IMG/VR virus record: IMGVR_UViG_3300028031_000014
Coordinates: 1-23,483 of that record
DNA length: 23,483 nt
Strand: one strand, 5' to 3'
Source: a virus
Shown: positions 2,086 to 22,295 of the stretch, in pieces
Layout: every line of letters begins with the position of its first letter
Numbering within the stretch: position 1 is the first letter of the stretch
Translations under genes and position numbers: made by a program
The notes under the pieces: model-generated
What the model was told of the DNA's origin: nothing
Database searches by the model: none
The model's input: only the letters and a program-made list of their open reading frames with translations

Positions 2086-3388
2086 GCCGACCCGTAACCG
2101 GGACGCGATCTCTGACCATTTCTTGTTCAACGGGCAGGCACACCCACTGTTCTCGCCTAACGAACCGCCTCAGACTTTGCCTGGTTCGCCGCAGGAGTCG
2201 CCGCCTAATTCGTTTGAGCAGACCATCCGTGTGATGCATCGCCGTAATGGTGTGGTGGCCGCTTCGGTTACTGCTCGTGCGTTGTTGATGTCTGAGCTTC
2301 GGTTTGTTTGGCGTAGTGAGATCGATGGCGCCCTGTTTGGTAACGCTTCGTTGGCGCCGTTGGAACGGCCGCATCCTGGTTTGACTCGCGCGCAGCTGTT
2401 GTGGCGTCTCGAGCAGGATGTCTCGTATCTAGGCAACGCCTACGTTTACCGTCTCAATGACGGAACTTTGCGGCGTCTGCGCCCTGACTGGGTCAGCATT
2501 GTGCTGGGCTCTGACGAGTCTCCCGATGACGTGGCCAGGGGCGCGGACGCCGCACCTATCGCATACCTGTACGCCCCGCCGGGCCGGCATGCCGCTAAAC
2601 CTCAGGTGTTGTCGTTGGGTGAGGTCGCACACATAGCGCCGGAGCCTGACCCCACCGCGCACTTCCGTGGCGAGTCTTGGGTGTCTGGTGTGGTGCGCGA
2701 GATCCTGATCGACCTTCAGGCTACGGACCATCTTGGTAAGTACTTCGAGAATGCTGCGACGGCGAACATGATTGTCACGGCCCCTGAGAACATCGCTACG
2801 GGCGAGGATTTCAACGACTGGGTGGACACGTTCGACGCTCAGGTGTCGAACTCTGGTAACGCCTGGCGCAACATCTATTTGGGTGGCGGCGCTGACGCCA
2901 AAGTGGTAGGCGCGTCACTAGCCGACCTCGATTTGAAGAGCCTACAGGGTGGGCTTGAAACGAGGGTGGCTGCACGTTCAAGGGTGCCTGCGTCGATTCT
3001 GGGGATCCGCGAGGGTCTGCAGGGGTCGGCGCTCACTACGGGCAACTACAGCGCTACACGGCGCCTGTGGGCTGACGCATGGTTCGCCCCGTACGGGCAG
3101 TCTGTGTGCTCGAGCTTTGAACGGATCATCGCTCGCCCGACCGCCGCCGAACTCACTTTCGACCGTGACCGCATCCTGTTTCTACAGGAAGACCAGAAGG
3201 ACGCCGCCGACATCTTCAATACCACTGCCGCGGGTATGCGGCAGCTGGTGGACGGCGGGTTCGATCCGTTGTCTGTGATCGAAGCCGCATCCAAGGGGGA
3301 TCTAGCTGCGCTGACTCATTCCGGCAACCTGTCGGTCCAGTTGCAGCCCGAAGGACTCGCCCCACAAGGAGCCATAACCGATGACTGA
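2054..3388 (+). CDS. portal protein, HK97 family
   Basis: Dodecameric ring protein at the head vertex through which DNA enters and leaves, 444 residues. Family features are visible: the early helix ending in AASVTARALLMSELRFVWR, the segment LLWRLEQDVSYLGNAYVYR, the stem region around VVREILIDLQATDHLGKYFENAA, and the C-terminal crown containing RVPASILGIREGL and TTGNYSATRRLWADAWFAPY. ATG 2054 is chosen because GGGAG lies 7 bases upstream. The in-frame GTG at 2048 is too close to that site. The gene is followed by the protease with an 8-base overlap. Confidence 0.95.
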   Translation: MPSILTRLRGKPTRNRDAISDHFLFNGQAHPLFSPNEPPQTLPGSPQESPPNSFEQTIRVMHRRNGVVAASVTARALLMSELRFVWRSEIDGALFGNASLAPLERPHPGLTRAQLLWRLEQDVSYLGNAYVYRLNDGTLRRLRPDWVSIVLGSDESPDDVARGADAAPIAYLYAPPGRHAAKPQVLSLGEVAHIAPEPDPTAHFRGESWVSGVVREILIDLQATDHLGKYFENAATANMIVTAPENIATGEDFNDWVDTFDAQVSNSGNAWRNIYLGGGADAKVVGASLADLDLKSLQGGLETRVAARSRVPASILGIREGLQGSALTTGNYSATRRLWADAWFAPYGQSVCSSFERIIARPTAAELTFDRDRILFLQEDQKDAADIFNTTAAGMRQLVDGGFDPLSVIEAASKGDLAALTHSGNLSVQLQPEGLAPQGAITDD

Positions 3389-4031
3389 GTTGCAGATCGT
3401 AGAACGCTCATGGGCGCCGCTGATCGATATAGAGATCCGACGCCATGGCGACGGCCGCACCGTGTATGGCCTGGCCGTACCGTTCGATTCACCCACTCCG
3501 ATACGCGACGGCCAGGGTGACTATACGGAAATCTTTCGGCACGGTTCGTTCACAAAGACAATCAATGACGGTGTGGGTCGGATCAAGTTTCTGGTCAATC
3601 ATGACCGCACCGGTCGACTGCCTCTTGGTCGCGCCGTGTCACTCGTGGAAGACCCATCCGGGTTGGTTGGCGAGTTTCGCGTATCGAACACCCGCCAGGG
3701 TGACGAGGTGCTCGAGCTGATTCGTGACGGTGCTTTAGACGCATTTTCTATTGGGTTTCGTCCGATCCGTGACGCATGGAATAGCGACCGCTCCTTGGTT
3801 GAACGTACCGAGGTCGCTCTTTCCGAAGTCTCCACTGTCGCTTTCCCAGCGTACGACGGAGCAAAGATCGCTGGCCTACGGGCCGACGTGGACATACAGC
3901 AACACCTAGACGACGACGCCGCTACAGACGCCGCCCATGCGGGCACCTCTGAGCACCTCGATGACAAGGCCGTTGATTCGACGTTCGCCGCCCGGCGACG
4001 TCTACGCCTACATCTTGGAGTAAAGCTATGA
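3381..4031 (+). CDS. prohead protease, HK97 family
   Basis: Serine protease that matures the capsid by removing the scaffold-like delta domain from the coat protein, 216 residues. The fold begins with GRTVYGLAVPFDSP. The catalytic His lies in NHD (His74), the nucleophilic Ser in DAFSIGF (Ser123) and the third residue in LSEVSTVAFPAY (Glu149), matching the herpes-type Ser-His-acid arrangement of the family. The C-terminus (after about 168) is acidic and low in complexity and is probably self-cleaved. AAGGAG sits 9 bases before the ATG. The stop overlaps the major capsid start (ATGA). Confidence 0.93.
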   Translation: MTELQIVERSWAPLIDIEIRRHGDGRTVYGLAVPFDSPTPIRDGQGDYTEIFRHGSFTKTINDGVGRIKFLVNHDRTGRLPLGRAVSLVEDPSGLVGEFRVSNTRQGDEVLELIRDGALDAFSIGFRPIRDAWNSDRSLVERTEVALSEVSTVAFPAYDGAKIAGLRADVDIQQHLDDDAATDAAHAGTSEHLDDKAVDSTFAARRRLRLHLGVKL

Positions 4032-16436: not shown

Positions 16437-16619
16437 TTGAAGGCCGCTGTTGTGGCTTTGTTCGTCGCCGACCAGCCGTACATCAACGAGCAGTTGTTGC
16501 CGTGCGAGCCTGACTATCACGTGTTTATCGCCGGCCGGTGCCGGCATTGCCGTTACCACGAGGGGGAAATCGATGAGACACCGCATACACACCCGCGGAG
16601 CCAGGGAAGCTATCAGTGA
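16437..16619 (+). CDS. small Cys/His protein in the lysis cluster
   Basis: Open frame with TTG 16437 as the nearest start, about 60 residues. It begins with a hydrophobic stretch (KAAVVALFVADQ) and contains a C-x4-H-x6-C-x2-C-x2-H arrangement (CEPDYH then GRCRHCRYHE), which could bind zinc. The last 47 bases overlap the metallopeptidase gene. The start is uncertain because the ribosome site is weak, and GTG 16452 is the alternative. No family is recognised. The gene is supported by its composition and by filling an otherwise empty gap. Confidence 0.45.
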   Translation: MKAAVVALFVADQPYINEQLLPCEPDYHVFIAGRCRHCRYHEGEIDETPHTHPRSQGSYQ

Positions 16620-17064
16620 AGCGTTTCGGATTGTCGACCGTTTCAGTAACGCGATCGGCCCTGTCGAATTCGTTGTAGGCGTCGATCCGGTATTCGCCGG
16701 GCTCCACTCCTTCGACGACACGGCAGACGATTTGGCCGATGACCGCTCATTCCGGAACGTGAGTCATTGTTGCTATCCGTGGAACATTGATGGTCCAGCG
16801 GATCGCAGATGCACAACGATCGTGTTAGCACCGGGCGAGTACAACATGAGTGTGCCGACGATCGTTCACGAGTTGGGACACGCTCTCCACTGCCAAATGG
16901 GCTTCAGTCATGCCCCGGAGCCCGTCACTGACTACGCCGAAACAAATCGTTACGAAGCATTCGCTGAAGCCTTCACCACGTACCTGTTCTACGGCTACGG
17001 AGATGAGGACGTGCTGAACGGTGACCACTCGACACTCCGACTATTCGAAGGGTTGGCCGCATGA
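16573..17064 (+). CDS. zinc metallopeptidase, lethal-factor-like (ATLF type)
   Basis: 163 residues from ATG 16573, with GAGGGGG 6 bases upstream. It carries the zinc motif HELGH (His99, Glu100, His103) and, 24 residues later, the segment YAETNRYEAFAEAF. Spacing and wording match the C-terminal catalytic domain of anthrax lethal factor (HEFGH, then Y-x2-TN-x2-E-x-FAEAF), where the second Glu of the FAEAF part is the third zinc ligand. There is no signal peptide. It lies between the holin candidate and the amidase, and its stop overlaps the amidase ATG. Peptidoglycan or host-protein cleavage are both possible. The C-terminus is -GLAA. Confidence 0.75.
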   Translation: MRHRIHTRGAREAISEAFRIVDRFSNAIGPVEFVVGVDPVFAGLHSFDDTADDLADDRSFRNVSHCCYPWNIDGPADRRCTTIVLAPGEYNMSVPTIVHELGHALHCQMGFSHAPEPVTDYAETNRYEAFAEAFTTYLFYGYGDEDVLNGDHSTLRLFEGLAA

Positions 17065-19576: not shown

Positions 19577-19798
19577 ATGGGCAAGAGCCCTTACACAAAG
19601 CTGTCCGTCTGGGAGTACTGCGTTCTGTACCACCCACAGCCCGAGGACGACAAAGAACGTCACACCGAACTGCTTGTACCGGTCACATCATGCATGGCCA
19701 GAGATGAGGATCACGCCAAGATGTTGGCGGCGCGCGACATCCCCGATGAATACGTCGACAAGTTAGATCGGTGCGAGGTGGGGGTACGCCCTTTCTAA
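19577..19798 (+). CDS. small conserved phage protein of unknown function
   Basis: 73 residues with GAGAGGAG about 6 bases before the ATG. It contains VWEYCVLYHPQPEDDKERH, ARDEDHAKMLAARDIPDEYV, and ends with DKLDRCEVGVRPF. The arrangement of a beta strand, acidic loop, helix, and terminal VRPF is one I recognise as recurring in small proteins of tailed phages without known function. The sequence looks intact. It is the last plus-strand gene before the convergent lysogeny genes and is followed by a hairpin. Confidence 0.75.
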   Translation: MGKSPYTKLSVWEYCVLYHPQPEDDKERHTELLVPVTSCMARDEDHAKMLAARDIPDEYVDKLDRCEVGVRPF

Positions 19799-19822
19799 CG
19801 AGGCCACCTGAGAGTGGCCCCG
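19799..19822. terminator. putative bidirectional terminator hairpin
   Basis: GGCCAC and GTGGCC form a perfect 6-bp stem around the loop CTGAGA. Extending outward with CGA and CCG gives nine positions with one mismatch. It begins one base after the stop of the last plus-strand late gene, and the minus-strand genes converge on it. Only short T runs follow, so efficiency is uncertain. Confidence 0.5.
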
Positions 19823-19859
19823 AGGTGTTTCAGCGTACGGCGTTCTCGTTGCCCCAGAA

Positions 19860-20036
19860 CTACACGTACACAAACGGCGGGATCGTGGGTACGTACGTAC
19901 CTACGCCAAACACATCAACACCGACCATCGACACGACTGTGTGGTGTTCGGCGACCAGCGCCAATGCACTCACATAAGCGCGTAACCGTTTCATTTCTGC
20001 CACCGTTTCACCCGCGATGAAACAGCACAGATGCAT
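19860..20036 (-). CDS. possible small protein at the end of the lysogeny genes
   Basis: 58 residues read from the complement of ATG 20036, with GGGGGAAGG just upstream. It begins MHLCCFIAGETVAEMKRLRA, has the helix AYVSALALVAEH and ends GVGTYVPTIPPFVYV. Composition looks protein-like, but a TTG at 20069 could extend it and no family is recognised. A 14-base palindrome lies inside the 3' part. The ribosome site falls in a large hairpin (20041-20089). It is the only candidate gene in the 300-base stretch between the last late gene and the lipoprotein. Confidence 0.4.
   Translation of the reverse strand: MHLCCFIAGETVAEMKRLRAYVSALALVAEHHTVVSMVGVDVFGVGTYVPTIPPFVYV
19888..19901. repeat. perfect 14-base palindrome
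   Basis: GGTACGTACGTACC reads the same on both strands, with ACGT iterated. It could be a protein-binding site, but it also encodes part of the small minus-strand frame (TYVPT), so it may be incidental. Confidence 0.5.
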
Positions 20037-20040
20037 GTCC

Positions 20041-20089
20041 TTCCCCCACACCTCCGGTGGTCCCCCCAACCCCGGCCGGTGTGGGGGAA
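20041..20089. terminator. large hairpin at the end of the lipoprotein gene
   Basis: TTCCCCCACACC and GGTGTGGGGGAA form a perfect 12-bp stem with a 25-base loop that can fold further (CCGG pairs). On the plus strand it is followed by TTT. It sits 17 bases beyond the lipoprotein stop, so it may terminate the repressor-integrase-lipoprotein transcript or plus-strand readthrough. Confidence 0.5.
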
Positions 20090-20105
20090 TTTACGCGTCT
20101 AGGGT

Positions 20106-20348
20106 TCAGCTGTCGCGGTCGGCCAGGAAATCGGCGGCTGTCTGGCCGCTCTGATTCACCAACACGCCTGCACTATTGTGCAAACCCTTCAAGTCGTTGA
20201 GCTCCAACGACGTCATCTCACCCATGCGCTCGAGAGGCACGTGCGTGCCGTCGCCGGTGTAGCAGCAAGACTCGGCATCGGTGGCGCCGCTGGCGCATCC
20301 CACAACGGTCAACGCCACCACCAACCCGAGCCACATCCGTTTCGCCAT
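20106..20348 (-). CDS. putative lipoprotein, 80 residues
   Basis: Begins MAKRMWLGLVVALTVVGC: a basic start, a hydrophobic core and a lipobox VVGC with Cys18 as the lipid-modified residue. The mature part, about 62 residues, starts with ASGATDAESCC, is acidic, and contains a helix (LELNDLKGLHNSAGVLVNQ). It should be anchored on the outer face of the cytoplasmic membrane. The gene is 18 bases after the integrase and probably in the same transcript, so it may be made by lysogens. Phage lipoproteins in such places often block superinfection or change the host surface. That role is inferred. Confidence 0.75.
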   Translation of the reverse strand: MAKRMWLGLVVALTVVGCASGATDAESCCYTGDGTHVPLERMGEMTSLELNDLKGLHNSAGVLVNQSGQTAADFLADRDS

Positions 20349-20366
20349 GGCACCAACGGTAGCGCA

Positions 20367-21155
20367 TCAGGCCGCCAACCGGCTCACAGCCGCTGCTGCG
20401 GCACCGTCAGCGATACCCACGTACAACGCTGTCAAATCCGTGGACGAGTGCCCCAGCATGTCGCGCACCAAAAACAGGTCTTTGCCTGACTCCCGGTACA
20501 AAGACGTCGCATACCACGCCCGCAGACTATGCATCGGCCGCGGATGATCCCAACCCAGACCATGCAGAAACCTCGAGCCGCGCACCGATACCCATGCCCC
20601 GGTGATGCCACCCAACACCAGCTCGCCAGGTGTGGCGATGGCTGCGAGCGCCGTTTTGGTGTCGTCGTGTAGCGGCACGGATCGCTGCTTGCGGCCCTTA
20701 CCCCACACCGTCAACGTGGTGTCTGTCACGTCATCTACCCGCAGCGCCGCCATCTCCGCTGTCCTCAAACCCTGGTAGCAGCCGAGGCACAGTGTGGCCC
20801 GCACCTTAGGCGTCGCCGCGGTCAACGCTTCACGTAGCAGCGCGGTCGGTATCGGCCTCGGCCGGTGGTGCGGCACCTGCGGCACAGGCACCGCGTCAGT
20901 CGGGTCCACTGTCACCAGGCCTTCACGTAGCGCCCATTGGTAGTAGGCACGTAGGCCTTTGCGGTATGACATGCGGGTGGCCGGCGCCACATGCGGCTGC
21001 TCAACCCAGAGCCACGCTTCGATGTCCACGTGGGTGGCGTTGAGCGGGTCGCCGTGCCAGCCGGCGAAGCGCCGGTTTACGTTGCCCCATAGTTTGATTG
21101 TCGGTTGGGTGAGGTTGCGTCTCCGCATCCATTGTTCGAACCCGTCGTCGTTCAT
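20367..21155 (-). CDS. int: tyrosine integrase
   Basis: 262 residues, compact for a phage integrase. Residues 1-85 form the helical core-binding domain (TIKLWGNVNRRFAGWHGDP, RKGLRAYYQWALREGL). The catalytic domain has Arg131 (CYQGLRTAEMAAL), the beta-hairpin Lys153 (WGKGRKQR), His209 and Arg212 (HSLRAWYA), His236 (LGHSS) and the nucleophile Tyr245 (LTALYVG), so all catalytic residues are present. No separate N-terminal arm-binding domain is evident. It follows the repressor in the same orientation. The last residues are SRLAA, an ssrA-like end that may mark the protein for ClpXP. Confidence 0.95.
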   Translation of the reverse strand: MNDDGFEQWMRRRNLTQPTIKLWGNVNRRFAGWHGDPLNATHVDIEAWLWVEQPHVAPATRMSYRKGLRAYYQWALREGLVTVDPTDAVPVPQVPHHRPRPIPTALLREALTAATPKVRATLCLGCYQGLRTAEMAALRVDDVTDTTLTVWGKGRKQRSVPLHDDTKTALAAIATPGELVLGGITGAWVSVRGSRFLHGLGWDHPRPMHSLRAWYATSLYRESGKDLFLVRDMLGHSSTDLTALYVGIADGAAAAAVSRLAA

Positions 21156-21192
21156 TCCGCCGCCATTCCCTGTGTAGGTTCCCAGGAGAAGT

Positions 21193-21219
21193 AGTGGCTA
21201 TCACGCTGTCAGTGGCTAT
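21193..21219. repeat. direct repeat upstream of the integrase
   Basis: AGTGGCTAT occurs twice, 18 bases apart start to start, between the repressor and the integrase. This could be an integrase or accessory-protein site near attP. Confidence 0.4.
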
Positions 21220-21254
21220 GGTGCAGCGCGTAGCAACCCGATACCCCCATGTCA

Positions 21255-21270
21255 TGATCCGTTAGGATCA
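21255..21270. repeat. short inverted repeat after the repressor gene
   Basis: TGATCC and GGATCA flank the loop GTTA just beyond the repressor stop. There is no T run. It may be a weak terminator or a recombination-related site. Confidence 0.4.
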
Positions 21271-21278
21271 GATGCCGG

Positions 21279-21641
21279 TCACGCAGCGAGAGCGGTCGGC
21301 ACGTAATGTGGGAATGGCAGCACCGTAGGCACCTGACTGTCAGGCACCGGTAACGGCCGCAGACCGGCCAGCGGGTAGGCGGCAAGCTCAAGCCAGTGCA
21401 GTGACCGTGCGGTTTCCTCACCAATAGCCGCAGCGAAATACTCGAGCGGCACCCCCGTCACCTGCGCCCAACGGCATGCCAGGTCAAGGCTGATCTTGCG
21501 GTTGTCGTGCTCGTAGTTGGTCACTGACCGTGGATGGATGTCTAGTTGTGCTGCTAACGCTTCGCGGCTGATGCCGAGGTGGTTGCGTGCACGTGTCAGC
21601 CGTTCGCCCAGGCCTAGCACTTCTGTGAATGATGTTGCCAT
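21279..21641 (-). CDS. immunity repressor, XRE-family HTH
   Basis: 120 residues from the complementary ATG 21641, with GAGAGG 7 bases upstream. An ATG 33 bases earlier lacks a ribosome site and would overlap the promoter. Residues 11-66 form a lambda-repressor-like HTH domain: LGERLTRARNHLGISREALA, then AAQLDIHPRSVTNYEHDNRK, and the trailing helix DLACRWAQVTGVPLEYF. The C-terminal part is Pro-rich and not a peptidase domain, so there is no RecA-type self-cleavage. It ends VPTALAA, matching the end of an ssrA tag. It is divergent from the RHH gene, and both promoters share operator-like sequences. Confidence 0.85.
   Translation of the reverse strand: MATSFTEVLGLGERLTRARNHLGISREALAAQLDIHPRSVTNYEHDNRKISLDLACRWAQVTGVPLEYFAAAIGEETARSLHWLELAAYPLAGLRPLPVPDSQVPTVLPFPHYVPTALAA
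21327..21348. other. candidate attP core inside the repressor gene
   Basis: CCTGAC-T-GTCAGG, a 13-base near-perfect dyad at 21332-21344, is flanked by two direct copies of AGGCACC (21327 and 21342). It lies in the part of the repressor gene that encodes residues near 98-105, before the -ALAA end. Crossover sites of tyrosine recombinases are short dyads like this. The assignment is a hypothesis. The repeat also encodes VP-DSQ-VP and could be chance. Confidence 0.3.
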
Positions 21642-21680
21642 GTGTGTGCCTCTCTGTACGCCCACCGTATCCATAGGTCA

Positions 21681-21709
21681 TTTGTACCACATTGTCCCAC
21701 ATGGCGCAA
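21681..21709 (-). promoter_or_regulatory. putative repressor promoter
   Basis: Read on the minus strand: TTGCGC (-35), 17 bases, TACAAA (-10). Transcription would start near 21674, giving a 33-base leader with the GAGAGG ribosome site before ATG 21641. The -10 lies in an operator copy. Confidence 0.5.
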
Positions 21710-21726
21710 TAGGGGCACATTTGTGC

Positions 21727-21754
21727 TTGACAAACGTAGGCGATCGGGTACAAA
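21727..21754 (+). promoter_or_regulatory. putative early promoter with leaderless start
   Basis: A perfect -35 TTGACA at 21727-21732 is followed after 16 bases by TACAAA at 21749-21754. The expected transcript start is within about two bases of ATG 21763, so the first gene would be leaderless, as is common in actinobacteria. Confidence 0.7.
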
Positions 21755-21762
21755 TGTAGTCC

Positions 21763-21915
21763 ATGAGCACACAAACCAAGTCGGCCGACCTACGGATCAG
21801 GCTCCTACCCGATGACCTGAAGCGACTCTCAAGCCTCGCCGCCGAAGACGACCGCACCATCTCCGACTACGCCCGACGCATCCTCACCACCCACATCGAA
21901 GAAGCCACCGCATGA
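21763..21915 (+). CDS. ribbon-helix-helix DNA-binding protein (Cro-like)
   Basis: 50 residues. SADLRIRLLPDDLKRLSSLA gives the N-terminal beta strand (alternating L-R-I-R-L) and first helix, and RTISDYARRILTTHIEE is the second helix, the Arc/MetJ-type RHH pattern. Dimers of this fold place the strand in the DNA major groove. It is the first gene of the early transcript and lies divergent from the repressor, the place of Cro. No ribosome site is present, in keeping with a leaderless mRNA. An excision or antitoxin role is possible, but no toxin gene is adjacent. The stop overlaps the next ATG. Confidence 0.75.
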   Translation: MSTQTKSADLRIRLLPDDLKRLSSLAAEDDRTISDYARRILTTHIEEATA

Positions 21916-22295
21916 GCCCTAAGAAGGTCAGGGCCATCCCTCACGGCACCAACACTGGTTACAGCAGCAACTACGGGTGCAGGTGTGCCGATTGCACCGA
22001 AGCACACAGGGTCGCACATAAGGCATGGAGAGCTAAAGCCACCCTGCCGGCCGACTTCATCCACGGTGAGACCACCAACGGCTACAACAACTACGGGTGC
22101 AGGTGTGCCGATTGCACCGAAGCACACAGGGTCAGACATAAAGCATGGATGGATAAAGCATCCATGCCTCCCGGCTTCGTTCACGGTGAGACCACCAACG
22201 GCTACTGCAACTACGGGTGCAGGTGTGCCGATTGCACCGAGGCCGCCCGCCTGCAGAGTAGACGCACATATGCCGCACGGAAGGCCTCAGCATGA
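21912..22295 (+). CDS. protein with three tandem zinc-binding-like motifs
   Basis: 127 residues made of three 40-residue units starting at residues 11, 51 and 91. Each has H-G-x4-GY-x2-NYGCRCADCTEA followed by a basic helix (HRVAHKAWR, HRVRHKAWM, ARLQSRRTY). One His plus Cys23, Cys25 and Cys28 (and the same places in units 2 and 3) could hold a zinc ion. I recall similar HGT-x2-GY-x2-YGCRC-x2-C motifs from small actinophage proteins of unknown function, usually in one copy. A nucleic-acid or protein contact role is suggested by the basic helices. It is coupled to the genes on both sides. Confidence 0.8.
   Translation: MSPKKVRAIPHGTNTGYSSNYGCRCADCTEAHRVAHKAWRAKATLPADFIHGETTNGYNNYGCRCADCTEAHRVRHKAWMDKASMPPGFVHGETTNGYCNYGCRCADCTEAARLQSRRTYAARKASA
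21968..22240 (+). repeat. three near-identical direct repeats, 120-base period
   Basis: A 33-base block, beginning CAACTACGGGTGCAGG, is repeated without change at 21968, 22088 and 22208. Copies 1 and 2 remain identical for 46 bases. Copies 2 and 3 match over nearly 60 bases upstream as well. The period is a whole number of codons, so it reflects recent in-frame duplication in the zinc-motif gene. Confidence 0.95.

Follow-up and report, generated by a model that had tools for sequence, protein, structure and literature searches.

Gene content of the lysogeny region

The window analyzed here, meaning the whole stretch of DNA, is a 23,483-base linear IMG/VR virus record with a G+C content of 60.7%. 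Its terminase shares 30-32% identity with the terminases of small-genome Arthrobacter, Gordonia, and Rhodococcus phages and up to 43% with uncultivated contigs, and the source is a small phage of the actinobacterial type. The genome is probably incomplete on its right side, because a pentapeptide-repeat gene (PF00805; 22702-23481, plus strand) is interrupted by the contig end. The following features were identified:

Left part of the window: HNH gene, terminase, portal, prohead protease, capsid, and tail genes (profile matches)
Right part of the window: lysogeny region
20106..20348, minus strand: small lipoprotein-like open reading frame (ORF), downstream of the integrase
20367..21155, minus strand: tyrosine integrase, 262 aa (PF00589, E=1.7e-11; terminus VSRLAA)
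21156..21278: 123-bp gap between the repressor stop and the integrase start, an alternative place for attP
21279..21641, minus strand: helix-turn-helix (HTH, XRE-type) repressor, 120 aa (HTH_3, PF01381, E=4.7e-11, residues 17-69)
21279..21413, minus strand: coding region of the repressor tail (residues 76-120)
21642..21762: 121-bp control region between the repressor and the RHH gene, with putative operators
21763..21915, plus strand: divergent RHH-like gene, 50 aa (Arc-like, phrog_3431, E=7e-5)

Open reading frames and profile matches agreed with the gene coordinates and frames given by the first-pass annotation. They also agreed with the gene order that it had likened to mycobacteriophage BPs, a repressor-integrase tandem on the minus strand with a divergent regulator, which matches the BPs-type arrangement. 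This order can be read directly from the window, as can the domain layout of the integrase. The integrase frame is intact and carries the complete catalytic R-K-H-R-H/W-Y set of a tyrosine recombinase (R131, K153, H209, R212, H236, and Y245, invariant in alignments A1 and A2). The protein is short: profile matches span only the core-binding and catalytic parts, and no arm-binding domain was seen in profile searches of its 262 residues. In published integration-dependent systems, integration needs only the core, without arm-type sites (PMC9262239). The repressor places its HTH inside residues 12-74, followed by a 45-residue tail (residues 76-120) that is an uninterrupted reading frame and terminates in VPTALAA; an alternative in-frame upstream ATG at 21674 would give a protein of 131 aa. 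The tandem genes, presumably cotranscribed, are separated by a gap whose length lies inside the spread of related loci and which contains a 9-bp direct repeat, AGTGGCTAT, at 21193 and 21211. The 50-aa divergent protein also matched the RelB-like model NF048017 (E=7.6e-6), yet below the model's own cut-off, and from its position a Cro role is plausible.

The control region contains a perfect 10-bp inverted repeat, CATTTGTACC (21679-21688) and GGTACAAATG (21747-21756), with a third related copy, ACATTTGT, at 21717-21724. We regard these three copies as putative operators. Visual inspection shows each outer copy overlapping a possible -10 element near the start of a divergent gene; since an automatic promoter and terminator scan returned nothing, these elements are offered as a mere suggestion. 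The possible -10 elements (TACAAA) lie approximately 7-9 nt 5' of the ATG at 21674, which starts the 131-aa repressor form, and of the ATG at 21763, which starts the RHH gene, and both divergent genes could be leaderless. Elsewhere in the window, the operator-like sequence ATTTGTACC occurred only as single-mismatch copies, in a number near chance.

C-terminal ssrA-like ends

Three of the 27 window proteins end in -LAA: the repressor (-ALAA), the integrase (-RLAA), and the ORF at 16450-17064 (-GLAA). The background consisted of 803 coding-like ORFs, each 60 aa or longer, taken from related viral contigs; none of them had this end. The composition expectation is 0.14-0.16%, which predicts about one such ORF in the set, so the zero count is not a signal by itself. 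Chance is nevertheless an unlikely source of -LAA on both the repressor and the integrase, given a rate of about 0.16% by composition and its absence from the background. The ssrA-like ends reported by the first-pass annotation (VPTALAA and SRLAA) are present and above chance. In published systems, tags described as "--LAA, or similar" are found on both the repressor and the integrase (PMC9262239), and the window shows this same pair, an ssrA-like tag on the viral repressor and another on the integrase. As features of the sequence the tags are well founded, and they would be expected to promote degradation.

The third -LAA protein had been raised as a caveat and called a metallopeptidase. Its -GLAA end is real; profile searches gave the family assignment no support, with no Pfam or NCBIfam match for 16450-17064. 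This plus-strand ORF contains a metallopeptidase-like HELGHAL motif and lies just before the gene at 17061. An overlap between its stop and the start codon of the following gene constrains its last codon, and its -GLAA end may be coincidental.

The repressor tail, TVLPFPHYVPTALAA, resembles the tails that follow the core in three control repressors (PLLTFPPRAA, EVLAFPGRAA, and PILTLPVRAA); the shared motif was picked after inspection of the data and occurs in 0.7% of background C-termini.

Search for an attachment site

According to a review, all integration-dependent immunity phages use tRNA attB sites (PMC9262239). We compared 20 loci in which an HTH repressor lies upstream of a related integrase. 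In 17 of them (16 if L125, a duplicate of phage GRU3, is discounted), the repressor frame carried a perfect tRNA T-arm, located 55-232 nt ahead of the stop; an -AA end was present on 13 of these 17 repressors. Because twelve of the approximately 20 seed sequences behind the HTH model also belong to the set, the 17 of 20 count describes related loci rather than an unbiased survey.

The BPs-type phage Angel and GRU3 served as positive controls for the T-arm scan, which recovered the core in the former and two copies of it in the latter. No perfect T-arm was found anywhere in the window by the same scan, and ARAGORN detected no tRNA there. In the lysogeny region there was no Rfam tRNA match at E<=10, and the longest match in a word comparison, for which only 14 tRNAs were available, was 11 nt. 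The absence of a T-arm is not unique to this phage: among viral and phage loci of related integrases with at least 500 bp upstream, whether or not a repressor was present, 31 had a T-arm within 1 kb and 25 did not. Two kinds of candidate were rejected. The sequence GTTCGAAC at the integrase start is T-loop-like, but its stem does not pair, and two single-mismatch matches to one short Xer dif-like pattern were chance-like.

To search for attB, we compared the region 19790-21760 with 790 actinobacterial genomes from two classes. Only weak, chance-level matches were obtained (E of 2.5e-5 to 0.005), scattered along the query. Those in the repressor tail that were inspected fell in unrelated genes and reflected a GC-rich codon run. 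One 28-bp match coincided with the best core-like dyad (21356-21383), which was no better than shuffled sequence; the match was not counted for this reason. A control with the GRU3 repressor region matched 42 of 60 genomes, with the strong matches, as low as E=1e-13, at the two copies of the core. Only a few core matches came from a second control whose core is less conserved; such a search would thus overlook an attB that is lineage-specific or lies outside tRNAs. The result argues strongly against a conserved tRNA-type core and is compatible with an attP of another kind in the repressor.

The first-pass annotation had placed attP inside the repressor gene. We found no recognizable tRNA core in the whole window and no attB among the 790 genomes, though the positive control worked; by ARAGORN, Rfam, the T-arm scan, and the genome search, the last two of which detected positive controls, the window lacks an attP core corresponding to a host tRNA 3' end. 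The annotation had also suggested comparison with integrated prophage copies. These were sought through relatives of the integrase and none was found, nor was a host: across viral contigs, bacterial genomes, and phage and plasmid records, no integrase relative exceeded about 39% identity. Viral contigs yielded no close relative of either the integrase or the repressor, and phage and plasmid records yielded none of the repressor.

Comparison with known systems

The closest annotated integrase, at 37% identity, is that of Gordonia phage GRU3. Integration-dependent immunity has been published for this phage, together with an attP of 37 bp (PMC5559632), which falls inside its repressor. Like the window, the Gordonia cluster CW phages (GRU3, GMA5, McGonagall, and Jeanie) combine a small genome and a short integrase with an integrase-repressor tandem opposite the other genes, and their repressors end in -TAA or -VAA. 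Unlike the window, their repressors contain the 37-bp tRNA-Lys core, translated as an RDSNPEP peptide. In GRU3 (about 3464-3613 of locus L002), this core occurs twice, in the repressor and in the repressor-integrase gap. A perfect 26-bp palindrome, GCCCCGTCACCGGATGGTGACGGGGC, is common to GRU3 and McGonagall (L085) and lies 35 bp before the core, in repressors that are otherwise diverged.

Mycobacteriophage BPs and its relatives (Angel, cluster G) share with the window the integrase-repressor tandem, the divergent regulator, and the degradation-tagged viral repressor, although similarity between the repressors is limited to a weak HTH match (36% over 64 residues, E about 6). Angel differs in its T-arm core within the repressor, its 398-aa integrase, its repressor end (-DKAS), and the HTH/RDF-like gp34 found where the window has the RHH protein. 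The known pattern also appears in phages with distant terminases: L324 carries a remnant, RPEGFEPPTFCLG...RRLPRAA, upstream of its integrase. In L326, whose terminase is distantly related, the HTH repressor (2965-3291) stops right after the T-arm peptide RRDSNPQPF, whereas its relatives have long tagged tails.

Several other phages resemble the window in being tagged. Nyceirae has a tagged repressor (-VTAA) and integrase (-LLAA) with no T-arm in the region examined, and its degradation tags were published with no attP or attB identified (PMC5559632); it differs in a larger genome and in an additional ORF on the opposite strand, which separates the repressor from the integrase. Bowser and Schwabeltier, compared here by published description only, have tags like those of the window in larger genomes; no attB was found for their tagged repressor and integrase in any sequenced Gordonia, and the formation of integrated prophages is considered uncertain (PMC4982277). 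The phage-like contig G796:C20 (L288/L296) places an HTH repressor ending in -AELAAA beside an integrase 36-39% identical to that of the window, without a T-arm, and its region had no convincing match elsewhere in its genome bin. In contrast to the window, its repressor and integrase overlap by 4 nt, and the integrase is larger by its called start. The window fits this unexplained set better than the canonical one.

A possible variant of integration-dependent immunity

Part of the BPs-type switch proposed by the first-pass annotation was upheld in its anatomy, namely the gene order, the tags, the short integrase, the 45-residue tail, and a closest integrase from GRU3, while the tRNA-type attP in the repressor was not recovered. 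Because the family-defining feature, attP in the repressor, was not found and its usual tRNA-core signature is absent, we did not file the window as a canonical member; it is probably a variant of integration-dependent immunity instead. The switch is plausible and, with attP in the tail, would operate as in BPs. The reading that we tentatively favor, at somewhat less than even confidence, is a tagged tandem of repressor and integrase in which integration into the repressor tail removes the tag. Both proteins would be short-lived through their -LAA ends, presumably read by ClpXP. During infection the tagged repressor would be destroyed, and the tagged integrase would occasionally persist until it had recombined the chromosome with a site in the repressor tail. 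Integration would then strip the tag, and a stable truncated repressor could silence the lytic promoter. As the core is not a recognizable tRNA 3' end, recombination would have to take place at a non-tRNA attB or at one in unsampled sequence. Either the tail holds an attP that matches such a site, or attP lies elsewhere, possibly in the 123-bp gap or in sequence missing from the fragment, and the tag only destabilizes the repressor.

This second arrangement is possible, if less likely than tag removal. With attP in the gap, downstream of the integrase, or in the unsequenced part of the genome, the tags would only keep the repressor and integrase low during infection, host protease activity would set lysogeny, and the prophage would retain a full-length repressor. 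The lack of a core in the repressor and the 9-bp direct repeat in the gap favor it, and for published systems host proteases are believed to govern how often lysogeny occurs (PMC9262239). However, a prophage whose sole repressor is permanently tagged would struggle to maintain lysogeny, and the tagged repressors described in publications are linked to loss of the tag (PMC9262239).

Two further explanations appear less likely. The integrase may no longer serve chromosomal integration, or may act only in a host beyond the usual range, the repressor tag being left over from an ancestral integration-dependent system that has lost its attP core. A missing T-arm core in an otherwise matching cassette would fit, as would Bowser and Schwabeltier, tagged phages with no attB in sequenced Gordonia and uncertain prophage formation (PMC4982277), but the intact integrase frame and catalytic residues and the uninterrupted repressor tail speak against such decay. 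More improbable still is an ordinary repressor-integrase-Cro-like region in which the -LAA ends have no degradative role. Ala-rich ends are frequent in the family of the window integrase and a third window protein ends in -GLAA, yet -LAA is rare by composition and absent from the 803 background ORFs.

Under the favored reading of tag removal, the window might further belong to an unrecognized branch in which a tagged repressor and integrase use a repressor-tail attP directed to a non-tRNA chromosomal site. Nyceirae, Bowser, and G796:C20 would be possible members, and the RHH protein would act as Cro in the window; we consider this grouping speculative and rather doubtful. In the published switches, use of a tRNA attB makes the tRNA end, the recombination core, and repressor coding sequence coincide in one DNA segment. 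A tagged module lacking a tRNA core would show the switch to be independent of tRNA integration and could explain the tagged phages for which no attP has been located. Should attP lie elsewhere, repressor tagging would exist without tag removal, and the tag would be a weaker marker of the mechanism.

Genes flanking the module

Downstream of the integrase, the lipoprotein-like ORF has a positional counterpart in Microbacterium phage PensacolaC28, where a lipoprotein gene likewise lies 3' of the integrase. The PensacolaC28 integrase (L302, 2865-3741) is annotated as two genes in different frames, and a frameshift is possible. On the other side of the module, a plus-strand gene at 21912-22295, whose start overlaps the RHH stop, encodes a small protein with three tandem copies of the cysteine motif NYGCRCADCTEAHRV.HKAW and weak PHROG matches to families labelled HNH, HTH, and integrase.
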